Source: Verrucomicrobiota bacterium (GTDB taxonomy: Bacteria; Verrucomicrobiota; Verrucomicrobiia; Opitutales; Opitutaceae). From it: a stretch of 47,204 nt of DNA. Position 1 is the stretch's first letter. Each line of letters opens with the position of its first letter. The notes under the pieces were generated by a model that had not been told where the DNA came from, made no database searches, and saw only the letters and a program-made list of their open reading frames with translations. This document shows positions 4,073 to 36,668 of this stretch, in pieces. The position numbers and the translations under genes were made by a program. The stretch is from positions 1-47,204 of the forward strand of contig JACQWL010000222.1 of assembly GCA_016209255.1 (NCBI GenBank). Direction: 5' to 3'.

Positions 4073-5656
4073 TCACGTTTGGGCATCGAGGCGACGTGCT
4101 TCTTCGAGGTCGATTCGGTAGGCGCGGCCGTGCTTTCGGAGCAGAACGAGCAAGTTTGGCCCATCGATTAGCGAGATCGGTTTGTCTTTGGCGAAATCGT
4201 AGGAGTCCGGACCGTAGGAAGAGGTCGTGACGAGGATGCCTCGGTTTGCGCCTTCATTCACAACGGTGCCGTAAAGGTCCCGAACCGCTGCGACATCGAC
4301 GGTGCGCGTGTAACGCTTCGCCTGAATGACATACTTGCCGCCCCGGATGGGGTCCGGGTCGAAAACGATGGCGTCGACGCCGCGATCACGGGACGCCCGC
4401 GTAACCTTCACCTCTACTCCTTCGCTGGTAAACATCCATTCGAAGAGCTGCCTGACGAGGTGCTCGAAATCCTCCCATGGCATGGCTGCGAGGTTCGCTT
4501 CTTCGGGCAATTGCGCCGTGATGTCCCGGTTGGCGACGATTCGTTTGTCGTCAGTGTTCATCACGAAAATCGGCCGAACCGGTGCAGCGTTGAGGATGTT
4601 TGGCGTGGCGATGCCGCCGAGGTGTCTGAAGCAGGCATCAGGGTCCAAGTGTCCCGGGTGAAGGCGGCGAAGCTCGTTCTTCATCGCCTGCAATGACGCC
4701 ACGAGGCCTTCGCGCGGCTCGCCGGTCGCCGGGTCGAACCATTCTTGGTGCGCATTGACCGCAACCGTGTCGAAAAAATCACCCGGATCGCTCATCGCCA
4801 CGAGGTAGGCAGCGCGGATGCACAACGCGCGAAGGAGCGTCGCCGCCATGCGTTTTTTCGCGGTCTCTGAAACCGGATGCCATGTAGCGCCTTCCTTCAG
4901 AAATCGAAGCTGCGCGGGGTCGGGAACTTCAATCGTGCATAGGGCGATGCGCGACACCGTATCGAGTGAAAAATCGGATTCTTGCATCAGCACCGGTGGC
5001 AGCGGATGCCGAATTAGGGTGGTGAGCATCAACGTCCTGATTGCATTGCCATCGCCTGCTTTGCACCGAAGCGCCAACTCGTAGCACTCTTGTTCTTCGC
5101 GGCGAATCTTGACGGCAATCGCTTCGCGTTTGGCCTCAATTTCACTCCGCATTTTCTCGTATCGTTTCTGATTTTCTTCAGCCATCCGTCGCACGGTCTC
5201 GATAACACTTGTGAGCGAGCTATGCATGGCCAGCTCCTTGGGGTGCTGTTGAAAGTGGTTACGCACCGAATTCACGGCCGCCGTCGGATTCCGCCATGCA
5301 GGCAACTCCGGCAGTATGGTTGGTCGAGACGTTGTAAGGACGTCTAGGCCATGCGGTGGGCAAAGCGCGTCGGCCGAAAGGACCCATTCTACTTGAGGCA
5401 AAACTAAAAAATTTTCGGCTTGAAAATAGCCCGCGGGTTCTTTCTCCGGCGGCAACGGTGCTTGGAAAATTCCTCGATATTCCGGAACGGCCTGCAACGA
5501 ACGCTCGAAATCTGAAAGCGCGTCGCGAAATGTCGTCACGCTCCGATAAGGATCATTACCGTAGGCCATTGCAGATAGTGTATGTAGCGCCCGGAGTGCG
5601 TTTTTGAAATCAAAAACCTGAACTCCGAAATCACGGTAGCTCAACAATGCCGGCAT
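4073..5656 (-). CDS. Mrr-family restriction endonuclease with N-terminal sensor-like region
   Basis: A 527-residue protein whose C-terminal domain (about 385-520) is a clear Mrr-type nuclease: PWEDFEHLVRQLFE helix, RDRGVDAIVFD with D428, then KYVIQAKRY with Q445-A-K447, then VRDLYGTVVNEGANRGILVTTSSYG. D-x16-Q-x-K is the Mrr form of the PD-(D/E)XK site. The N-terminal 380 residues have no domain I recognise, apart from a charged coiled coil around 150-190 (ENQKRYEKMRSEIEAKREA). No methyltransferase is nearby, so it may be a modification-dependent (type IV-like) enzyme or part of a defence unit with its neighbours. The ATG at 5656 overlaps the 3' end of an upstream open fragment by 26 bp. Confidence 0.75.
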   Translation of the reverse strand: MPALLSYRDFGVQVFDFKNALRALHTLSAMAYGNDPYRSVTTFRDALSDFERSLQAVPEYRGIFQAPLPPEKEPAGYFQAENFLVLPQVEWVLSADALCPPHGLDVLTTSRPTILPELPAWRNPTAAVNSVRNHFQQHPKELAMHSSLTSVIETVRRMAEENQKRYEKMRSEIEAKREAIAVKIRREEQECYELALRCKAGDGNAIRTLMLTTLIRHPLPPVLMQESDFSLDTVSRIALCTIEVPDPAQLRFLKEGATWHPVSETAKKRMAATLLRALCIRAAYLVAMSDPGDFFDTVAVNAHQEWFDPATGEPREGLVASLQAMKNELRRLHPGHLDPDACFRHLGGIATPNILNAAPVRPIFVMNTDDKRIVANRDITAQLPEEANLAAMPWEDFEHLVRQLFEWMFTSEGVEVKVTRASRDRGVDAIVFDPDPIRGGKYVIQAKRYTRTVDVAAVRDLYGTVVNEGANRGILVTTSSYGPDSYDFAKDKPISLIDGPNLLVLLRKHGRAYRIDLEEARRLDAQT

Positions 5657-6457: not shown

Positions 6458-6805
6458 CTACCTGATGAATGCGGCGCTGAGCATGTGCACCGGCATGGCT
6501 TCAAGTTTCGCACGGTCAGCGAATAGCGCCATGAGTTGCGCCGCCTTTGCCTGGCCGTAGTGTACGGCGAAGGCGGAACCGGCCTTTTGCCGGAGGATGG
6601 GGATGCCTTCGGCGCGGCGGCGGCGGTGGCCGATGGGGTAGTCGACGGCGATTTTTTCGGTCGCGGTGCCATCCTGGAAGAAGACCTGCACGGCATTGGC
6701 GATGGAGCGTTTCTCGGGGTCGAGGTAATCGCGGGAGTATTGTTTGTCCTCCGTGACGACCATCCGGGCGCGGAGGACGTCGATCCGCGGGTCGGCGGCG
6801 GTCAT
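6458..6805 (-). pseudogene. prpD' - C-terminal fragment of a second 2-methylcitrate dehydratase
   Basis: A 115-codon open frame that matches the last ~115 codons of intact prpD (8006-9526). Shared landmarks are [43 protein letters not shown] and LFADRAKL. The DNA is clearly homologous, differing at roughly one base in seven by eye. Homology stops abruptly upstream of the AADPRID codons, where the Fic gene ends. The fragment has an ATG overlapping the Fic stop as ATGA, so it could be translated by coupling. Alone it cannot be a dehydratase because most of the MmgE/PrpD fold is missing. Its extreme C-terminus (MLSAAFIR) differs from the intact copy. Confidence 0.85.
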
Positions 6806-7857
6806 TTCGTGGTGGGGGCGCGCTGCCATTTGGCCGCGCGGCCGACTCCAGAGGAGTTGAGCAGTCCCTCGTCGCGCAACTGGCGCAGGACGAGGCGCAC
6901 CATGTCGCGCCCGACCCCCGGGCAGAGCCGTTCGAGGTCGGAAATCGCGAATGGCGCGATCTGACGGAGCGCAGCTTCGCGCACTTGCTTGGTCTTCGAG
7001 CCACGACCGGGCGCGATGTGGCCGAGGCGGTCCTCGAATTCCTTGTAGGCGCGCAGCAGCGTGCCCCAGAAGTAGCGCAGCCAAGGGAAGGGATCGTGTG
7101 TGCCCTCGTGCCAGCGCTGCGAGCTGGCCTCGAGCGTTTCGTAGTAAGTCGCTTTCGATTCCTCGATGACTCGCTCCAAGCTGATGTAACGCCCCACTTC
7201 GTAGCCGGCTTGGTAGAGCGCGAGCAGCGTGAGCAACCGGGCGACGCGACCGTTGCCGTCGCGAAACGGATGGATGCAAAGAAAGTCGAACACCAGGAGC
7301 GGCACCAACACGAGCGCGTCGGGGGCGTGGGTGGAGTGGGCGTGCTGCCAGGCGCCGACGAGGTCCTCCATGGCTTGCGGCGTGGCCAGGGCGGGGACAG
7401 TGCGGAAGCGCACGCGGTGCGAGCCGTCGGCATGGAGGTCGATAATTTCGTTGTCGGTGGTTTTCCACTGGCCGCCTTCACCGGGCAGGTAGCGAAAAAC
7501 GGTCTGGTGAAGCTGCAAGATGAGATTGGGCGACAATGGCATTGCCGGTGCGGAATCGTGAATTAGCGCGAGAGCGTCGCGATAGCCGGCGATTTCCTGT
7601 TCGGAGCGGTTGCGCGGCGCGGCGTGATGGAGCACGATTTTTTCCAGCTGAACGCGTGGAGCCTCGATTCCCTCGATGCGGTTGGACGACTCGGTGGATT
7701 CAACACGGGCGACTTTGCGCAGCGCCTCCAATGTCTCGGGTGTCTGTTTGCGAAAGAGATCCTGCTTGCCGCGGTAAGCTCCCAAGGCCTGAACGGTGAC
7801 AAGATCGGCGCGTTCGAAGCGGAGGCGCTCTAGAAACTCTGGGGCAAACGAGTGCAT
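6802..7857 (-). CDS. Fic family protein (class II, with inhibitory helix motif)
   Basis: A 351-residue Fic protein. The N-terminal inhibitory motif S/T-x-x-x-E-G/N is present as S58-N-R-I-E62-G63 in ESSNRIEGIEAP. The catalytic loop is a perfect HPFRDGNGRVAR with H196. The C-terminal part carries a winged-helix-like region (FAISDLERLCPGVGRDMVRLVL). Fic enzymes transfer AMP or another NMP from a nucleotide to a hydroxyl on a target protein, and the inhibitory Glu (E62) blocks ATP positioning until relieved. It lies between intact prpD (its upstream neighbour on this strand) and the prpD' fragment, whose ATG overlaps its TGA. It has its own upstream region with GGGGTA-type repeats. All key residues are present, so it is probably active. 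Confidence 0.9.
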   Translation of the reverse strand: MHSFAPEFLERLRFERADLVTVQALGAYRGKQDLFRKQTPETLEALRKVARVESTESSNRIEGIEAPRVQLEKIVLHHAAPRNRSEQEIAGYRDALALIHDSAPAMPLSPNLILQLHQTVFRYLPGEGGQWKTTDNEIIDLHADGSHRVRFRTVPALATPQAMEDLVGAWQHAHSTHAPDALVLVPLLVFDFLCIHPFRDGNGRVARLLTLLALYQAGYEVGRYISLERVIEESKATYYETLEASSQRWHEGTHDPFPWLRYFWGTLLRAYKEFEDRLGHIAPGRGSKTKQVREAALRQIAPFAISDLERLCPGVGRDMVRLVLRQLRDEGLLNSSGVGRAAKWQRAPTTK

Positions 7858-7864
7858 CGGGAAT

Positions 7865-7921
7865 GGGGTAGTTTCATGGTTTTAGGGGTAACGCGATACT
7901 GAAATTACCCTATTTAACCCC
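7865..7921 (-). promoter_or_regulatory. GGGGTA-type inverted repeats upstream of the Fic gene
   Basis: Within about 60 bp upstream of the Fic ATG the plus strand shows TAGGGGTAA (7883-7891) facing TTACCCTA (7905-7912), with further copies GGGGTA (7865-7870) and TTAACCCC (7915-7922) outside. The spacing and symmetry suit an operator. The C-terminal winged-helix-like region of the Fic protein makes autoregulation conceivable, but no protein is known to bind here. Confidence 0.35.
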
Positions 7922-8005
7922 GTCCTGCCCCATTTGTGCGGAATGGCTGAAACGCACCACGGCTCGATGAGTTACGCGACCGAAACGTGAAATCGGGCCG
8001 TCGAG

Positions 8006-9526
8006 CTATGGCGGGAAGAGGGACACGAACTCGTGCACGCGCATTGCGTCGAGTTTCGCGCGGTCGGCGAAGAGGGCAATGAGTTGCGCGGCCTTGGCTG
8101 GGCCGTAGTGCGCGGCGAAGGCGGACTCGGCTTTTTGCCGGAGGAGGGGGATGCCTTCGGCGCGGCGGCGGCGGTGGCCGAGGGGGTATTCGACCAAGAC
8201 CGTTTCAGTCGCGGTGCCGTCGTGGAAAAAAATCTGCACGGCATTGGCGATGAAGCGTTTTTCGGGGTCGAGGTAGTCGCGGGAATATTGCTTGTCCTCG
8301 GTGACGGTCATCTTCGCGCGCAGCGCGTCGATCCGCGGGTCGGCGGCGATCTTGTCCTCGTAGTGGTCGGCCGTGAGCGCGCCGAAGATCAGGCCGATGG
8401 CGGTCATGTACTGCAGGCAGTGATCGCGGTCGGCCGGGTTGTGCAGCGGCCCGGATTTGTCGATGATGCGAATCGCCGACTCGTGCGTCGTCAGCTCGAC
8501 CCGCTCGATCTGCTCGAGGCGCTCGCGGACGAGCGGATGGAGTTTCATCGCGCACTCGACGGCGGTCTGGGCGTGGAATTCTGCCGGGAAGGAGATTTTG
8601 AAAAGGACGTTTTCCATCACGTAGCTGCCGAGCGGACGGGCGAGTTTCACGGGCTGGCCTTTGAAGCACACGTCTTGAAAACCCCACGTCTTTGCGGTGA
8701 GCGCGGAGGGGTAGCCCATCTCGCCGGTCATCGCGATCAGCGCGAGGCGGATGGCCCGGCTGGTGGCGTCGCCGGCCGCCCAGGATTTGCGCGAGCCGGT
8801 GTTGGGCGCGTGGCGGTAGGTGCGGAGCGCGGCGCCGTCGAGCCAGGCGTGCGAGATCGCGTTGATCACCTGTTCGCGCGTGCCGCCGAGCAGAGCGGTG
8901 GTGACCGCAGTGGAGGCGACGCGGACGAGAAGCACGTGATCGAGGCCGACGCGATTGAACGAGTTTTCGAGCGCGAGCACGCCTTGGATTTCGTGCGCCT
9001 TCACCATGGCGACGAGGACATCGCGAATGGTGAGCGCAGGCCGCGCCGTGCTGCGCGGCGCGCCGGGCGCCAGCACCGGAATCGCGTAGGCCGGGAGCGA
9101 CGTGCCGAAAGCGGCCGGTGCGATGCCGGCGGCTTGATGGCGGGAGAGCCAGTCGGCGGTGGCGAGGATGGCGCCGAGGTTGTCGGACGGGTGGCCCCAC
9201 TCGGCGGCGAGCCAGGTGTCGTTGAAATCGAGCCAGCGGACAAGGGTGCCGAGGTTGAAGGCGGCTTGAACGGGATCGAGTTCATGGCGGGTGCCGGGAA
9301 CACGCGCGCCGAGCCGGATGGTCGTGCCGGGCACGACGGGGCCGAGGAGCTTCGTGCACGCCGGGTAGGCGAGCGCCATGATGCCGCAGGCCAGCGTGTC
9401 GGCGAGGCACCAGCGGGCGGTGTCGAGGGCTTCGTTGCTCGTGATTTTCGCGTTGAGCGCGTAGTCGGCGAGATCGACGAGGAGCGGGTCCGGGGCGGGG
9501 CGGAGGTTGGAAATGGGGGCGGACAT
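8006..9526 (-). CDS. prpD: 2-methylcitrate dehydratase (MmgE/PrpD family)
   Basis: A 506-residue MmgE/PrpD protein. It dehydrates 2-methylcitrate to 2-methyl-cis-aconitate in the cytoplasmic propionate-catabolic 2-methylcitrate cycle. Visible landmarks include [18 protein letters not shown] (substrate-site region), [38 protein letters not shown] and the C-terminal [15 protein letters not shown]. Length is in the usual range of about 480-510 residues. It lies 86 bp downstream of prpC on the same strand, separated by a strong hairpin, and upstream of the Fic gene. A diverged duplicate of its last 115 codons lies at 6458-6805. The sequence looks fully functional. Confidence 0.93.
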
Positions 9527-9541
9527 GGTTGCGTCGTGCTC

Positions 9542-9616
9542 GTGATCGTAATCGTGCTCTTACTCGGTGCGAAGCAAGTCGATTACGAGCACGAGTAAGA
9601 GCACGATTACGATTAC
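9542..9616. repeat. GTAATCG-type inverted repeat between prpC and prpD
   Basis: A perfect 19-bp inverted repeat, arms 9548-9566 (GTAATCGTGCTCTTACTCG) and 9592-9610 (its reverse complement), with a 25-nt loop. Pairing extends outward for six more positions with one mismatch. The loop repeats part of the motif (GATTACGAGCACGAG). Similar GTAATCGTAATCG/GAGCACGATTACG patterns behave as dispersed intergenic repeats in related bacteria, to my knowledge. It sits inside the prpC-prpD gap and could stabilise or terminate the prpC message. Confidence 0.75.
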
Positions 9617-10791
9617 CTCTTTTCCAACGGCACGAATGGCCGCTCGGCAGGACCGGTGTAGTTGGCCCCGGGCCGGATGATTTTGCCGTCGATGCGTTGT
9701 TCCACGACGTGCGCGGCCCAGCCGGCGGTGCGGGCCATGACGAACAGCGGAGTGAACATGAGCTTCGGCACGCCCATCCGGTGGTAGGCGACGGCGCTGA
9801 ACCAGTCGAGGTTGGGAAACATCTTTTTCTCGGCCCACATGAATGCCTCGATCCGTTCGGCGACGGCGAAGAGTGTCATGTCGCCGGCCCCGTCGCTGAG
9901 CTGCCGCGCAATTTCCTTGATGATGGGATTGCGCGGGTCGCCGATCGTGTAGACCGGATGACCGAAACCGATGACGATTTCGCGGCGGCCGACGCGGGCG
10001 CGGATGTCGGCCTCGGCCTCGGCGGGCGTGTGGTAGCGCTGCTGGATGTCGAGGGCGACCTCGTTGGCGCCGCCGTGCTTGGGGCCGCGCAGCGCGCCGA
10101 TCGCGCCGGTGATGCACGAGTAGATGTCCGAGCCGGTGCCGGCGATCACGCGGCCGGTGAAGGTGGAAGCGTTGAACTCGTGTTCGGCGTAGAGGATCAT
10201 CGACTGGTCGAGCGCGTGGACGTGCGCCGCGGCCGGCGTGCGCCGGTGCAGCAGCTGCAGAAAATGGGCGGCGATGGAGGGATCGTCGGTCTCGACGCCG
10301 ATGCGCCGGCCGCTCGTGGCGTAGTGGTGCCAGTAAAGCAGCATCGAGGGCAGGCAGGCGAGGAGTCGGTCGGCGATGGCGCGCGCCCCGGCGACGGTCG
10401 AGGCGTTGCCACCAGCCGCGGGTAGGTGTTCCGGCTCGAGATTGCCGAGCATGGAGCAGCCGGTGCGAAGGACGTCCATCGGGTGCGCGTTTTTCGGGAT
10501 CTGCTCGAGGACGCTACACAGCGGCGGAGGAAGGCGGCGGAGGGAGATGAGTTTCGCGCGGTAGGCGTCGAGTTCCGCGCGATTGGGCAGGCGCTCGTGA
10601 ATGAGCAGGTGGGCGATTTCCTCGAAGGTGGCGTGGGCGGCGAGATCGGCGATGTCGTAGCCGCGGTAGTGGAGATCGTTGCCGGTGTGACCGACGGTGC
10701 AGATGGCGGTGTCACCGGCCACGACGCCGGAGAGGGCAACGGATTTTTTGACCTTGGAAACGGAAGGGGGCGTGGATGTTGGGTCACTCAT
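9613..10791 (-). CDS. prpC: 2-methylcitrate synthase (citrate synthase family)
   Basis: A 392-residue citrate-synthase-family enzyme. It condenses propionyl-CoA with oxaloacetate to 2-methylcitrate, the entry step of the cycle. Landmarks: [20 protein letters not shown] near the N-terminus, [10 protein letters not shown], the active-site His in [11 protein letters not shown], and [12 protein letters not shown]. The N-terminal [11 protein letters not shown] segment and the prpB/prpD context favour methylcitrate synthase over housekeeping citrate synthase. The ATG at 10791 starts [17 protein letters not shown] diverged copy of its first ~40 codons lies at 11817-11942, beyond the ORF6N gene. Confidence 0.93.
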
Positions 10792-11050
10792 GGGGATTTC
10801 TTTAACCGCGAATTACCGAGGGTGGCGCAGCCGCAACCAAGGCAGGCTTGCCCGCGAATCACGCGAATCAACTCGAATCACACTTGTCCAAAAACCAAGG
10901 TGATTTCATGGGCGGACATCCGTCAGACGATTCGAGCGCGGCGACCAACCTGTTTTTCTCAGTGCTCGGGAGGGATTTTCACGCGGAGCGCGCGGAGGCG
11001 CGGAGAGCAAAGCTGGTTCCCCGCCAAAGGCGACCAGGGATTAGCGCGGA
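10792..11050. repeat. Degenerate short-period repeats upstream of prpC
   Basis: This 259-bp gap carries runs with an 8-11 bp rhythm: CGCGAATTACC, CGCGAATCACGCGAATCAAC (around 10807-10878), CGCGGAGCGCGCGGAGGCGCGGAGAG (10980-11006, described not quoted as one unit) and AGCGCGGATTAGCG (11042-11055). These resemble the degenerate CGCGAAT- and CGCAGAG-type tandem repeats seen between genes in many Verrucomicrobiota. No coding frame is supported. The prpC promoter must lie here or upstream, but I see no clear element. Confidence 0.5.
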
Positions 11051-11650
11051 TTAGCGTTCCTCTTTCGTCTTGGGCGCGGTGTGAAAACCGATTTCACGTC
11101 GCGGTGGTTCGGGTAGCGGGGGCGGCGGGTCGAGCAGCGCCATGATGCGCTGGAGGACGTCGACGATGGCGGTCTCGTGTGTGTCGAGGCGAGACTTCAA
11201 CTCTTCCTCGAGTTCGGCCAGCTTCCGGGCGAGTTCGCGGGTGTCGGTGAGCGCGGCTCGCATCTTGATGAAGGCGCGGACAATGAAGACGCTCATCTGC
11301 ACGGCCTGCGGGCTGTTGAGGATGTTGGCGGCCATAATCGCGCCGTGCTCGGTGAAGGCGAACGGACGCGAATTCGGGTCGCGGTGCCGTTGCGAGGAAC
11401 CGATCACAATTTGTGATCGGTTCACGGCTAACACCTCAGGGCTCGTGAGTTGCAGAAGAAAGTCGGGCGGAAATTTGTCGCGATTGCGATTGACCGCCTG
11501 ATTCAGCGTGCGGGTCTCGACGCCGTAGATTCTGGCGAGATCGGCGTCGAGAATCACACGCTCGCCGCGGACGGTGTGGATGCCGCCTTCGATGACGGGC
11601 GGTGGAGCGGGGGGCTTTCGCTTCGCGAGAGGTATGCGGCTGAGTGTCAT
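11051..11650 (-). CDS. ORF6N-domain DNA-binding protein
   Basis: A 199-residue protein read from the ATG at 11650 (MTLSRIPLAKRK), preceded by AAAGG. Residues about 20-110 are an ORF6N domain: VRGERVILDADLARIYGVETR, LNQAVNRNRDKFPPDF, and PFAFTEHGAIMAANIL. A coiled coil follows (ELARKLAELEEELKSRLD) and a proline-rich tail. ORF6N proteins occur on phages, plasmids and mobile islands and are thought to bind DNA; a precise role is not established. It lies between intact prpC and the prpC' remnant. The gene contains one perfect palindrome and has a related one upstream, which suggests autoregulation. Confidence 0.85.
   Translation of the reverse strand: MTLSRIPLAKRKPPAPPPVIEGGIHTVRGERVILDADLARIYGVETRTLNQAVNRNRDKFPPDFLLQLTSPEVLAVNRSQIVIGSSQRHRDPNSRPFAFTEHGAIMAANILNSPQAVQMSVFIVRAFIKMRAALTDTRELARKLAELEEELKSRLDTHETAIVDVLQRIMALLDPPPPLPEPPRREIGFHTAPKTKEER
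11397..11423. promoter_or_regulatory. Perfect 27-bp palindrome inside the ORF6N gene
   Basis: Arms GAACCGATCACAA and TTGTGATCGGTTC flank a single central base. It covers the codons for roughly residues 76-85 of the ORF6N protein. Its core GATCACAA-N-TTGTG recurs upstream of the gene at 11758-11778. This is consistent with a pair of operator sites, although protein-coding constraint could also shape it. Confidence 0.5.
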
Positions 11651-11757
11651 GGAGGCGACCTTTGCGGTGAAGCGTGCAGAAATGGGGCGGAGCGTAAAGC
11701 ACTCGGAGAGAAATCGGCAATGCCACAACATCCGGCTACACCGGCATTAAGAATCTT

Positions 11758-11778
11758 AAGATCACAAATTGTGTTCTT
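11758..11778. promoter_or_regulatory. 21-bp near-palindrome upstream of the ORF6N gene
   Basis: AAGATCACAA-A-TTGTGTTCTT, symmetrical except for one base pair. It shares the core GATCACAA-N-TTGTG with the palindrome inside the ORF6N gene. It lies about 110 bp upstream of the ORF6N ATG in non-coding DNA, a plausible operator position. Confidence 0.5.
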
Positions 11779-11816
11779 GAACGATGTTTGAGGCGCCGAT
11801 TTGGCACCTCAAAGAT

Positions 11817-11942
11817 TCATGTTTTTTCGCGATTGCCCGAGTGGCCGACGATGCAGATGGCGGGGTTGCCCGCGACGACGCCGGAGAGGGCGACGGATTT
11901 TTTGGTATTCGGTGCGGGGATGAGCGTGGAGTCGGGGCTCAC
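11817..11942 (-). pseudogene. prpC' - 5' remnant of a second 2-methylcitrate synthase gene
   Basis: A 41-codon open frame from a GTG at 11942 that matches the first codons of intact prp[26 protein letters not shown] here against the corresponding [12 protein letters not shown]...[10 protein letters not shown] there. DNA similarity is obvious over about 75-105 bp and stops right after the GHSGN codons, where the frame runs into REKT and a TGA. Nothing of the rest of a citrate synthase follows. It is in the orientation and place expected for the start of an ancestral prpC downstream of prpB. Confidence 0.8.
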
Positions 11943-12149: not shown

Positions 12150-13103
12150 GTGCAAACCGATTTGCGCAAATGCTACCGAATCCTTGAGGTCGAGCCGGGC
12201 GCGACCTTGGAAGAGGTAAAGCGTGCCTATCGGGAATTGGTCAAGGTTTGGCACCCGGATCGATTTACCCACGACCCCAATCTTCAGCGAAAGGCCCAAG
12301 AGAAACTGAAGCAGATCAATTTGGCCTACGAACGGATATGTGCGGGCGGAGCGACATTTCGAGCAACGGACGCAGGAGGCTCATCAGGTTCGGGAACGGC
12401 CGCGCACAGGGAAGCGCCTCCACAACCGCCGCGACCGGCCTCGTCGCCCGGACAGGGAACGAGGAGGACGCATCGACTCGGTCAGATCACTGTTGCAGCA
12501 GTTATCGTCGCTGTCGTTGGAATGGTGTTTTCAACGATAGAATCGTCCCAGACGCGAAGCACTGGGAATCAGCCGGCCAATTCCGCGCCGCAGCTAACTT
12601 CTCAAGCGCCGCAGTCGCCGAGCGTCGATGCTCAGCCCAGAGTCCGCCAGCATCTCAGCATCGCGCAGATTTCAGAAGCATATCGGGAGGCTCTGAAAAA
12701 GCAGCCCGGGCTTGGAATGGCGCTCCAAAAATTCAGCCGATACGCGCAGGAAAAACTGCCTGATTACGATTTCTCCGAGGGCATCAACTATTCGCCCCCG
12801 AAGGAAACTCCTGCGCCGAACACCGAAATCTCCGCAAGCGCCGCGACTGCTGCAACTCCGGGAACAATTATTCATGCTCAAACGGGATCTGCGGAAGTTG
12901 AAACCAAGGACTACTTCACGGTCGGCTCGACCAAGGACGAAGTTCTCGCCGTTCAGGGAGTTCCGTTCTCGCGATCGCCCTCTGACGGGGTCTTCACATA
13001 TCGCTACGGATCCCAAGTGTTCTTCAAAGACGACCGCGTGACCTCGTGGAGAAACAGCAGGGAAAATCCACTCAAGGCGAAGCTCGAAAGCAGTCCGCCG
13101 TGA
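12150..13103 (+). CDS. Membrane-anchored J-domain protein with BamE/SmpA-like C-terminal motif
   Basis: A 317-residue protein from a GTG at 12150. Residues 4-62 are a J domain (YRILEVEPGATLEEVKRAYR, HPD at 35-37, then KLKQINLAYERI), which in DnaJ co-chaperones stimulates Hsp70 ATPase. A Pro/Ser/Gly linker leads to one membrane segment at about 112-128 (ITVAAVIVAVVGMVFSTI). The rest is outside or inside the membrane depending on topology. The C-terminal 55 residues (DYFTVGSTKDEVLAVQGVP, then YRYGSQVFFKDDRVTSW) match the VGSTKDEV...G.P pattern of BamE/SmpA-like modules. The next gene starts within its stop codon (GTGA), so the two are translationally coupled. It is opposite in strand to the prp genes and looks inserted. 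Confidence 0.75.
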   Translation: MQTDLRKCYRILEVEPGATLEEVKRAYRELVKVWHPDRFTHDPNLQRKAQEKLKQINLAYERICAGGATFRATDAGGSSGSGTAAHREAPPQPPRPASSPGQGTRRTHRLGQITVAAVIVAVVGMVFSTIESSQTRSTGNQPANSAPQLTSQAPQSPSVDAQPRVRQHLSIAQISEAYREALKKQPGLGMALQKFSRYAQEKLPDYDFSEGINYSPPKETPAPNTEISASAATAATPGTIIHAQTGSAEVETKDYFTVGSTKDEVLAVQGVPFSRSPSDGVFTYRYGSQVFFKDDRVTSWRNSRENPLKAKLESSPP

Positions 13104-13843
13104 ACGCTGCGAACCGTTGGGCGATTTACATCGACGTCGAAGGCACGTCGAAACTTTACACGAAAGACGCGGACCAATTTCACGCGGGATTCGGCAAACT
13201 GCTCGGTGCCGTTTACGCGATCGGCGACCAGGTTTACCCAGAACCCCCGGCACGGCTTTTCGCCCATCAAGTGGGTGGTGACGGGATAGTGATCGTTTCG
13301 GATTTCGAGGAAGATTCGCCGGAGAGATTCGTTTCGATAGCTGTCATTCTGTTGGAGGTTCTCCTCGTAAATGGATTGGTTGGAAAGGCCGGCATATCGA
13401 CGGGCACGTTTTACGATATACAAGGCTGTGTGCCTTCACTACGGGAAGTGCCGAACGCGAACGACGCGGCATATAGTATGGGTGCCGGGTTGCTCACTAC
13501 TCTGAAAGTCATGGGAACCGCTTTGGTAAATTCGCACCATTTCGCTGAGGTTCCACCGAGGGGTAGTCGACTTGCTGTTGAGCCTGCGCTTTTGATGAAA
13601 ATCGCACCCGGGGCCGTCATTTCTGATTTCGGCGGGCCGGTCGTCGTCGACCGGATTCATACCAAGACCGCCACCATTGAACACATCATCAAAACAGCGG
13701 GCCTTGATTTGCCGACCTCCAGTGAATTGAAGAAAAAGCTCATCGCATACGTCTCGAGCACTGGCCCTCTTGCCGACACCGAGTGGGGCCGAAATACATT
13801 GTCGTTGAACGGTTGTTCACCTGATGGGGCTACGGCTTCGTGA
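13100..13843 (+). CDS. Nucleotidyl-cyclase-like protein of unknown function
   Basis: A 247-residue protein from a GTG at 13100 that overlaps the J-domain gene stop by 4 bp. I do not recognise a named family. The N-terminal 110 residues look like a class III nucleotidyl cyclase or related palm domain: WAIYIDVEGTSKLY (D12, first metal Asp position), HQVGGDGIVIVSD (D61, second Asp in a G-D hairpin) and GKAGISTGTFYDIQG, the strand that in cyclases reads G-I-x-x-G. The remaining part is helical with no membrane segment. Stand-alone cyclases next to a membrane protein are the architecture of Pycsar-type antiphage systems, but the partner here is not a known Pycsar effector. Its end overlaps the prpB stop tail to tail by 14 bp. 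Confidence 0.45.
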   Translation: MNAANRWAIYIDVEGTSKLYTKDADQFHAGFGKLLGAVYAIGDQVYPEPPARLFAHQVGGDGIVIVSDFEEDSPERFVSIAVILLEVLLVNGLVGKAGISTGTFYDIQGCVPSLREVPNANDAAYSMGAGLLTTLKVMGTALVNSHHFAEVPPRGSRLAVEPALLMKIAPGAVISDFGGPVVVDRIHTKTATIEHIIKTAGLDLPTSSELKKKLIAYVSSTGPLADTEWGRNTLSLNGCSPDGATAS

Positions 13844-14699
13844 ACAACTGATCGAAGTTTTGCTCGTAGGTGTGATAACCGAGGACGTCGTACAGGTCGG
13901 CGCGGGTTTGCATTTTGCTGACGACGTTCTTCTGCGTGCCGTCTTTGCGAATCGCCGAGTAAACTTCGATCGACGCGGCGGCCGCGGCGCGGGAGGCGCT
14001 GAGCGGGTAGAGCGCCATCGCCACGCCAGCCGCGCGGAGTTCGTCCAGGGTGAAGTAAGGCGTCTGGCCAAATTCGGTGAGGTTCGCCAAAACCGGGACG
14101 TTCACCGCAGCGGTGAATTGCCGGTAGTCGTCGAGTGCGTGCAGCGCCTCGGCGAAAATCATGTCGGTGCCGGCGGCGACGTAGGCCTGGGCGCGCGCGA
14201 TCGCGGCGGAGAGGCCTTCGACGGCGGCGGCGTCGGTGCGGGCCATGACCACGAAGTCGCGGTCGGGTTTGCCCCTAACGGCGGCGCGCACGCGATCAAC
14301 CATCTCGGCGGTGGGGACGATTTGCTTGCCGGGGAGATGGCCGCATTTTTTGGCGGGCACCTGATCTTCAAGGTGGACGGCGGCGACGCCGGCGGCGGCC
14401 ATTTCGCGGACGGCGGTGGCGGGGTCGTCCCAGCCGGTGTCGATGTCGACGAGGAGCGGGAGGTCGGTGCGCTTCGTGATCCGGCGGGCATCGATGAGAA
14501 CGTCGACGAGTTCGGTGTCGCCGACATCGGGGAGGCCGTAGGAGTGGTTGGCGACGCCGGCACCGGACAGGTAAAGCGCGCGGAAGCCGGCACGCGCGGC
14601 AAGGAGGGCGGCGTAGGCGTTGATCGCGCCGGCGATCTGCAACGGCCGCTCCTGCTCCAGGGCCATCCGAAATCTCCGGCCGGGAGTGGGTGAACTCAT
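13830..14699 (-). CDS. prpB: 2-methylisocitrate lyase
   Basis: A 289-residue isocitrate-lyase/PEP-mutase superfamily enzyme that splits 2-methylisocitrate into pyruvate and succinate, the last step of the 2-methylcitrate cycle. The start at 14699 gives MSSPTPGRRFRMALEQERP. Landmarks: YLSGAGVANHSYGLPD, DIDTGWDDP (metal-binding Asps, about 85-92), and K117-K-C-G-H121 with the catalytic Cys119, followed by LPGKQIVP. ARTDA and EFGQTPYF are also family-typical. Length matches PrpB (about 290). It is the first prp gene on this strand, with prpC' and prpC following after the opposite-strand insert. It is divergent from the ABC operon with 108 bp between starts. Confidence 0.95.
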   Translation of the reverse strand: MSSPTPGRRFRMALEQERPLQIAGAINAYAALLAARAGFRALYLSGAGVANHSYGLPDVGDTELVDVLIDARRITKRTDLPLLVDIDTGWDDPATAVREMAAAGVAAVHLEDQVPAKKCGHLPGKQIVPTAEMVDRVRAAVRGKPDRDFVVMARTDAAAVEGLSAAIARAQAYVAAGTDMIFAEALHALDDYRQFTAAVNVPVLANLTEFGQTPYFTLDELRAAGVAMALYPLSASRAAAAASIEVYSAIRKDGTQKNVVSKMQTRADLYDVLGYHTYEQNFDQLFTKP

Positions 14700-35444: not shown

Positions 35445-36668
35445 GTGGAAACGAAACTGGTTTTGAGTCTGCTCATAATCGTCCGCTATGAGTTGCCCCG
35501 CGATTGGATCGCCTATGACCGGCTCGCAATCCTCGACGAACTGATGGCAGCGAAGGCCGCGATGCTCGCTCTGACCCAAATCCCCTACCAACGGAGCTGG
35601 GCGGACGAGTTGCAAAAGGTGCAGTTGAAGCGCGAGGTCGCGGGCACCTCCCGGATCGAAGGCGCGGAGTTTACCGAAAAGGAACTCGACGCCGCGATGC
35701 GCGAGACGCCCCAGCAACTCGAAACGCGCTCCCAGAAGCAGGCGGCGGCGGCGGTGCTTACCTACCGCTGGATTGCGCAGCTTCCCGCCGACCGGCCGGT
35801 GGATGTCGCGCTAATCGCGGACGTGCACCGGCGGCTCGTGAGCGAGTGCGACGACGATCATTGCGCTCCGGGGCAGTTGCGCGGCCGCGATCAAAACGTG
35901 ACCTTCGGCGCTCCGCGGCATCGCGGTTGCGAGGGCGGCGAGGAATGCCAGACGGCAATCGAAGGTCTCGTCGAAGCGGTGCGCACGGTTTACCGCGGCC
36001 ACGATCCGCTGGTCCAAGCGCTGGGGCTGCATTATCACTTCGCGGCGATGCGTCCCTTCCTCGACGGCAACGGACGCGCGGCGCGCGTGCTCGAAGCGAT
36101 CATGCTCCAGCGGACGGGACTGCGCGACACGCTGTTCATCGCGATGTCGAACTACTACTACGAGCAAAAGACCGGCTACCTGAACGCGCTGAACGAAACG
36201 CGCGCCGCGAATCACGACCTGACGCCGTTTCTCAAGTTTGCCCTGAAGGGCGTCGAGAGCCAGTGCCGCCGCCTGTTCGGGGAAATCCGCCTCCAGGTCA
36301 CGAAGGCGCTCTTCCGAAACACGATGACGGATCTTTTCGGCCGGCTGAAATCGCCGAGAAAACGCGCGCTCTCCGGCCGGCACGTGCAATTGCTCAATCT
36401 GCTGCTCGACGAGGAGGAGATGGCGCTCGCCGACATCACGGGGAGGACACGTCATTTCTACAGCGTGAGCAATCCGCAGAAGGCGTTGATTCGCGACCTC
36501 AACTACCTGATCGGGCTGCAGGCAATTTCAGCCAAGCGGTTGCCGGACAACGCGGGATTTCTCATCAGCATCAATCTCGACTGGCCGATGAAAATCACGG
36601 AGACAGAATTTTTCCGACGGATGAAGGAAATGCCGAAGGGCAAGGTTTACGGCTTCCTCTCGATCTGA
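35445..36668 (+). CDS. Fic family protein with substituted catalytic histidine
   Basis: A 407-residue Fic protein from a GTG at 35445. The N-terminal lead (YELPRDWIAYDRLAI, QLKREVAGTSRIEGAEFT) contains the inhibitory motif T68-S-R-I-E72-G73 of class II Fic proteins. The catalytic loop, however, reads MRPFLDGNGRAAR: the codon at 36051-36053 is CGT (Arg203) where the active enzyme has His. The rest of the loop is intact. The C-terminal part is a winged-helix-like region (LLDEEEMALADITGRTRHFY). Fic genes often sit inside type I RM loci, as here between hsdR'/hsdS' and hsdR'. Without the His, canonical AMP transfer is not expected; a regulatory or altered role, or early decay, is possible. Confidence 0.85.
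   Translation: METKLVLSLLIIVRYELPRDWIAYDRLAILDELMAAKAAMLALTQIPYQRSWADELQKVQLKREVAGTSRIEGAEFTEKELDAAMRETPQQLETRSQKQAAAAVLTYRWIAQLPADRPVDVALIADVHRRLVSECDDDHCAPGQLRGRDQNVTFGAPRHRGCEGGEECQTAIEGLVEAVRTVYRGHDPLVQALGLHYHFAAMRPFLDGNGRAARVLEAIMLQRTGLRDTLFIAMSNYYYEQKTGYLNALNETRAANHDLTPFLKFALKGVESQCRRLFGEIRLQVTKALFRNTMTDLFGRLKSPRKRALSGRHVQLLNLLLDEEEMALADITGRTRHFYSVSNPQKALIRDLNYLIGLQAISAKRLPDNAGFLISINLDWPMKITETEFFRRMKEMPKGKVYGFLSI

Follow-up and report, generated by a model that had tools for sequence, protein, structure and literature searches.

The prp locus and its displaced gene ends

The window analyzed here is a whole stretch of 47,204 nt from a Verrucomicrobiota bacterium of the family Opitutaceae (GCA_016209255.1, contig JACQWL010000222.1), and our subject is its methylcitrate (prp) operon, in which an ORF6N gene stands beside prpC and a Fic gene beside prpD, each together with a displaced end of its prp neighbor. 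The assembly, which is 6.78 Mb long, fragmented into 647 contigs and 85% complete, is called G000 below; other G numbers denote the genomes compared and L numbers denote loci. On the reverse strand the order is prpB, a 265-aa gene and dnaJ (both on the opposite strand), prpC', ORF6N, prpC, prpD, fic and prpD', the primes marking the displaced ends or stubs. A preliminary description, made from the letters of the window, had given this order with both remnants, and it is confirmed here, with 37 codons for prpC' and 113 codons for prpD'. The features lie at the following positions of the window.

6458..6803, minus strand: prpD', the 3' end of prpD, displaced; 113 codons that correspond to prpD from codon 394 on; starts at the fic stop codon
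6802..7857, minus strand: fic, 351 aa; Pfam PF02661, E 1e-14; PADLOC SoFic, E 1e-35
7886..7910, minus strand: dyad GGGTAA-N13-TTACCC upstream of fic; read by eye in the alignment; kept in G003 and partly in G072
8006..9526, minus strand: intact prpD, 506 aa; Pfam PF03972 (MmgE_PrpD) and PF19305
9613..10791, minus strand: intact prpC, 392 aa; Pfam PF00285 (Citrate_synt); xenologous by trees
11051..11731, minus strand: ORF6N gene, 226 aa as listed; Pfam PF10543, E 2e-26; PADLOC PDC-S05, E 8e-40
11397..11423, no strand: 27-bp palindrome within the ORF6N coding sequence; core RTCACANNNTGTGAY at 11403-11417
11740..11816, minus strand: spacer between prpC' and ORF6N, with inverted repeat TTTGAGGTGCC / GGCGCCTCAAA; aligns with G068, read by eye
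11832..11942, minus strand: prpC', the 5' end of prpC, displaced; 37 codons, in a frame of 42 codons that runs to 11817
13830..14684, minus strand: prpB (PEP_mutase/ICL), native neighbor by Pfam and synteny

The homology of both stubs to the intact genes, which the preliminary description had noticed, is far beyond chance. DNA identity is 84.6% over 319 bp between prpD' and prpD (E 8e-99), and 86% over 72 bp between prpC' and prpC (E 6e-18). The stubs break off at about 6803 and about 11831, a few bases from the positions first proposed (about 6805 and 11835). Among 142 genomes searched, prpD is present in 36, and a second overlapping prpD piece was found only in G000; in five other genomes with two prpD rows, a single gene is split by the alignment. 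A divergent ABC/FtsX gene pair lies beside prpB-prpC-prpD in the same arrangement as in relatives, and prpB, prpC and prpD stand together, as a methylcitrate operon, at a site conserved in relatives. Judged by this gene order, the prp locus of G000 is the native site.

The ORF6N gene, a putative DNA-binding gene, scores 92.4 bits against PF10543, for which the curated threshold is 27.8. Its start may lie further in than listed, because the first ~30 residues are not conserved in the alignment. The predicted structural model, with a mean predicted local distance difference test (pLDDT) score of 79, has a DNA-binding-like part and a long helix at residues 141-200. A fold search with this model gave no match at E 0.001 or better, and when solved structures were searched with a profile, a designed helical bundle was the sole match, and a weak one. 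The Fic gene scores 55.6 bits against PF02661, the Fic AMP-transferase family (curated threshold 24), and its translation appears to retain an intact active-site motif; it contains HPFRDGNGR and an N-terminal SNRIEG, which we take to be the named motifs of Fic proteins. The match to mobile mystery protein B (TIGR02613), itself a Fic protein, is weak (27.8 bits against a cut-off of 124.4), and the gene is not a member of that family.

The gap between prpB and prpC' (12150-13843) holds, on the opposite strand, the dnaJ-domain gene and the 265-aa gene, the latter without a Pfam family; a different gene, of 195 aa, occupies this place in G068.

ORF6N and Fic genes at other loci and between direct repeats

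The two halves of the arrangement occur apart from each other. In G068, a member of another genus, the order is prpB, the 195-aa gene, prpC', ORF6N and prpC, the spacer with its inverted repeat aligns with that of the window, and the prpC copies around ORF6N form 59-bp repeats at 88% identity. Searches of the 142 genomes found in G068 neither a close Fic relative nor a second overlapping prpD piece, the region after prpD being out of view because prpD ends near the contig end. Close relatives of the window Fic are present in three of the 142 genomes: G003 (90%), G072 (79%) and G018 (47%). In G003, the Fic unit is found by itself in an unrelated setting, on contig C398, which is not the prp contig. 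In G072, Fic lies 2 kb after prpD, flanked by 82-bp direct repeats at 87% identity. By eye, these repeats were taken for the end of a DUF488-like gene; the second copy begins 9 bp past the Fic stop codon. Similarity among the window, G003 and G072 begins ~100-150 bp upstream of the start codon and ceases near the stop codon, and the dyad upstream of fic is possibly an operator. The joint between Fic and prpD' can be read over a shared CGCCGC.

ORF6N genes are recurrent at prp loci. We read 72 prp regions (G000 plus 31 and 40 family genomes), and ORF6N lies within 3 kb of prpC or prpD in at least 14 of them, a lower bound because several loci are cut by contig ends. Clean loci, with neither Fic nor ORF6N, are the usual form, as the preliminary description had proposed to check. 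The ORF6N gene stands between prpB and prpC in G000, G003, G018, G068 and G293, of which G003, G018 and G293 yielded no prpC'. It stands after prpD, in some cases broken, in G017, G020, G052, G167, G171, G214, G218, G219 and G221, and an ORF6N fragment is kept at the prp locus of G051. Locus L342 (G214) has two ORF6N pieces after prpD, one of them incomplete.

In a 54-row ORF6N tree, from which matches under 120 aa were left out, 13 prp-located genes from different genera and two others form one starred clade of 15. The genes after prpD fall mostly into one starred subclade, and those before prpC into an unstarred one. Since the prp-located genes form one clade, the tree identifies this ORF6N as a lineage resident at prp and no stray passenger of a prpCD cassette. 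Near prp we counted 6 of 48 ORF6N genes, against 0.09 expected under assumed genomes of 5.5 Mb and a distance of 10 kb (seven with G068), a figure that does not count independent events, because these genes are one clade.

Bracketing by direct repeats extends well beyond prp. In a first set, 9 of 86 ORF6N or Fic genes were tightly bracketed, compared with 0 of 233 control open reading frames (ORFs); in a second set of 79 ORF6N loci from many phyla, the counts were 16/79 and 6/159. The two sets overlap (G068, for example, is in both), and the pooled count was therefore made only from distinct genes. With at least 400 bp required on both sides (15 of 173 genes under 400 bp left out), 23 of 158 genes were bracketed within 350 bp, whereas among control ORFs taken from the same loci the figure was 10 of 715 (P = 3.7e-11, odds ratio 12); L246, bracketed in the second set, is not among the bracketed genes of the pooled one. 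By family, the pooled brackets comprise 21 of 135 ORF6N and 2 of 23 Fic genes. One of the 10 control positives (L245:3254-3820) is itself ORF6N by sequence, and the start of another resembles a PIN-domain protein by eye. A rough control with PIN-domain genes gave 1/30 bracketed, on the assumption that the match lies 1500 bp from the locus ends, which is wrong for loci cut by a contig end. A further control positive, L343 (G217), is prpC itself, between 103-113-bp repeats at 75% identity.

The repeats of the 23 brackets are 75-96% identical and diverged over their whole length, with no identical pair seen, and 15 of the 23 read as the ends of neighboring genes. These are prpC and prpD in the window and prpC in G068; by family, FolD (L252 and L274), CinA (L266), RibB (ribBA; L270 and the near-identical L285), HpnA (L281) and ClpB (L183); and, by eye, DUF488-like (L109), hsdM-like (L235), TIR-like (L226) and dinD-like (L267) genes and an unnamed gene (L086). 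At L252:3995-4585 and L274:913-1503, the reading frame of ORF6N continues through the final 16 codons of the folD copy and terminates at the folD stop codon. In the cases read, ORF6N or Fic is alone between the repeats.

Origin of the copies and competing explanations

The lineage of the intact prpC differs from that of its genome. By rpoB, G000 groups with the same-genus G025, G018 and G011 (96-97% identity; the finer branches carry no star), and the ABC/FtsX neighbors of prp form a starred grouping with G018. Codons 39-392 of the intact prpC, in contrast, fall into a starred clade with G079, G053, G072, G046 and G083, all of other genera, and all 12 same-genus prpC genes in the tree belong to a different starred clade. 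The nearest prpC among 252 family genomes is that of G167, again of another genus (83% identical). On these trees, the intact prpC is xenologous.

The origin of prpD and of the stubs is less sharply defined. Codons 1-393 of prpD are weakly placed, a sliding comparison along prpD for a mosaic crossover gave no clear point, and the stubs are too short for their trees to give resolved branching. The prpD' trees were built without the long outgroups G085, G094 and G120. At the protein level, prpD' is nearest to the same-genus G014 (85%, against 79% to the intact end). The stub prpC' is 85% identical to the adjoining intact prpC and 93% like the intact prpC of G068 and G048, both of other genera, the best same-genus value being 89%. 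The gene trees that the preliminary description had called for bear it out in placing the intact prpC in another lineage, and for prpD' the branching by DNA and by protein disagrees.

The divergence between the copies is mostly silent. Counted by codon, the prpD copies differ at 27.2 of 78.2 silent sites (0.35) and at 26.8 of 245.8 replacement sites (0.109), and the prpC copies at 7.0 of 19.5 silent sites (0.36) and 4.0 of 52.5 replacement sites (0.076). Silent differences exceed replacement differences in most of the other bracket pairs too (L086 was left out of this count), for which reason the copies probably diverged while functional, that is, as working genes.

What is to be explained is thus the anatomy of the locus, the occurrence of its halves apart, the recurrent bracketing, the mostly silent divergence and the xenologous prpC, all of them observed. 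We lean toward two separate single-gene insertions around the prpC-prpD pair, made by recombination anchored on the conserved gene ends. The ORF6N unit (spacer and gene) would have entered the 5' end of prpC, leaving the old start as prpC', and the Fic unit (a short promoter region and the gene, up to the stop codon) would have entered the 3' end of prpD, leaving the old end as prpD'. In the route that we infer, with its order and direction, DNA from another species would carry a single gene beside the end of the same conserved gene, and homologous recombination would take place between this incoming end and the resident gene. At its far edge, the unit would be joined to a point slightly inward in the resident gene, where homology is slight or lacking. 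The resident gene would thereby remain complete, with a new end, and the old one would be displaced outward as a stub. The foreign body of prpC might have been imported separately or together with the unit. Because the flanking gene end would serve as a homology arm, such a unit would tend to return to the same locus, which would explain an ORF6N clade nearly confined to prp.

The preliminary description had preferred a single event, in which a 5-kb segment of another lineage, carrying ORF6N, prpC, prpD and fic, replaced the middle of a resident prpC-prpD pair, and had offered as its alternative a pair of independent insertions, each with duplication of a gene end. The intact prpC does come from another lineage, which is the strongest point of the single-event reading, the two stubs are the outer ends that such a replacement is expected to leave, and parts of a suitable donor exist in G293 (ORF6N-prpC-prpD), G167 (prpC-prpD-ORF6N) and G072 (prpC-prpD-...-fic). 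However, G068 has the left of the two junctions but lacks the right, the right edge of the Fic unit is the same in three unrelated settings, and the whole block, for which the preliminary description had suggested a search, is in none of the 71 other prp loci read. A single replacement is unlikely to us, and the two insertions are favored over it as the better fit, the pattern recurring elsewhere. Still less probable, in our estimate, are site-specific elements that carry a replacement gene end in their attachment site and are moved in trans by an outside integrase or phage. Insertion at a gene end with displacement of the old end is the known mark of such elements, several of the targets (folD, ribBA, cinA and clpB) are conserved genes, and islands in mutL (5' end) and rpsD (3' end) are on record (PMC4129442). 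Against this, the cases read have nothing inside the repeats except ORF6N or Fic, although no search aimed at integrases was made. The paired repeats also differ throughout their length (75-96% identity), and no core common to both copies was noticed.

Least probable of the four is a plain local duplication, in which the gene end was duplicated in place upon insertion, as a long target duplication, and the stub has decayed since. A duplicate decaying in place is expected to accumulate more replacement change and stop codons, whereas silent differences exceed replacement differences in both window pairs and in most others, the frame of prpD' is open over 113 codons, and none of the 23 pairs is identical. 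A recent duplication in particular is at odds with copies that are 16-17% diverged in DNA, mostly at silent sites. Several observations nonetheless agree with it or weigh against the two insertions. In DNA, prpD' is nearest to the intact end (82.6%, against 81.4%), and the two pair with support 59/83 in a tree of 333 nt; the protein test of the same pairing gave no rejection (approximately unbiased test, P = 0.197). Between the two ribBA loci, the intact ends agree to 96% and the stubs to 69%, as decay of the stubs would also produce. L274 shows the opposite pattern of change (silent 0, replacement 3), and in G068 the pattern is weak (3.0/15.0 silent sites, 4.0/42.0 replacement sites).

Other points against two insertions concern the joints and the extent of the foreign DNA. 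By identity, prpC' is nearest to genomes of other genera, so that it may not be native. The intact prpC is xenologous throughout, so that the foreign DNA reached further than the gene end, which might be due to a single larger replacement. The CGCCGC shared at the joint of Fic and prpD' is a weak joint in GC-rich DNA. In eight of the 23 cases, the bracket consists of intergenic or unclear repeats in which no gene end can be recognized, and in the same search ORF6N genes at 10 other prp loci had no bracket and no prpC or prpD stubs.

The ORF6N palindrome and comparison with known systems

A palindrome recurs within ORF6N genes. Of 79 ORF6N loci, two lay too near an end and were left out; among the remaining 77, TCACANNNTGTGA occurs in the gene region of 40 and in the 330 bp around the start of 16, against an expectation, from the rest of the same loci, of 0.0055 per 330 bp. 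In the 6.78-Mb assembly, RTCACANNNTGTGAY occurs at three places, all of them in ORF6N genes (three of the five ORF6N matches), and the reversed control at none. Across 43 in-gene copies, the seven outward positions on each side are complementary in 35-41, compared with shuffled means of 15.7-39.0, the kinship among copies being uncorrected in these counts; arm position 2 is nearly invariant and so uninformative, and positions 8-10 are at chance. The covarying arms extend the core dyad to 27 bp. The in-gene palindrome, carried by ORF6N genes of L214-L292 as well as by that of the window, encodes ...RSQIVT..., in a less confident loop of the predicted model (residues ~106-120), and a related palindrome lies upstream of some of the genes. 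Both the upstream and the in-gene palindrome would be candidate targets of the ORF6N protein. A broader proposal can be made only tentatively: ORF6N genes, and some Fic genes, might be single-gene mobile units that lack a recombinase and use a gene-end homology arm. Such a unit would bring along or acquire the end of a conserved gene, enter that gene in further species through it, rebuild the gene with a foreign end and leave the former end as a stub, with the ORF6N protein recognizing the upstream and in-gene 27-bp palindrome, which may serve control or transfer.

Gene-end integrative elements leave a displaced gene end, and both stubs are such ends, lying beyond the inserted gene. The spans from stub to intact gene hold ORF6N or Fic alone among Pfam-matching ORFs of at least 60 aa, with no integrase. 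Known gene-end islands, such as those at streptococcal mutL, likewise have one end of a conserved gene as their target, and both 5'-end and 3'-end targets are listed in PMC4129442; they are multi-gene and carry an integrase, whereas here the repeats enclose a single gene, with no recombinase seen inside them. Partial duplications also arise upon uptake of partly homologous DNA in natural transformation (PMC3784515). In homology-facilitated illegitimate recombination, one end is joined by homology and the other by little or none, as we propose for the prp locus. Both processes are known from transformation in the laboratory and are not known as a recurrent mark of a single gene family; the pneumococcal duplications are large and tandem. 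The present arrangement is different from the known gene-end systems in that one gene alone stands between the repeats, repeatedly in one family. Titles and abstract openings in the open-access literature, a scope outside which most subscription papers lie, gave no account of ORF6N gene-end scars or of the palindrome.

Single accessory genes pass between genomes all the time, yet the transfer of a lone gene without a recombinase is seldom visible. At these loci the scars can be read, with a foreign end on one side and the old end on the other, and the same scar around ORF6N genes in many bacteria points to a little-described spread of single genes. If the pattern holds, such transfers could be found and dated from sequence alone, the palindrome would make the role of the hardly studied ORF6N family testable, and the accumulation of candidate defense genes beside a metabolic operon would be explained.

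Any benefit of ORF6N and Fic to the host may lie in defense, because PADLOC models place ORF6N (PDC-S05, E 8e-40), Fic (SoFic/PDC-S04, E 1e-35) and an Mrr-like type IV restriction gene (E 6e-45) of the window among single-gene defense candidates; the models are silent on mobility, stubs and palindrome. The Mrr-like gene follows prpD' (4073-5656), and a gene 62% identical to it stands directly after prpD in G020 (L055), so that the prp locus collects candidate defense genes. A second, distant Fic-domain gene lies elsewhere in the window (35445-36668). The gap between prpC and prpD (9542-9616) contains a 25-bp inverted repeat at 96% identity that is composed of short repeated words.

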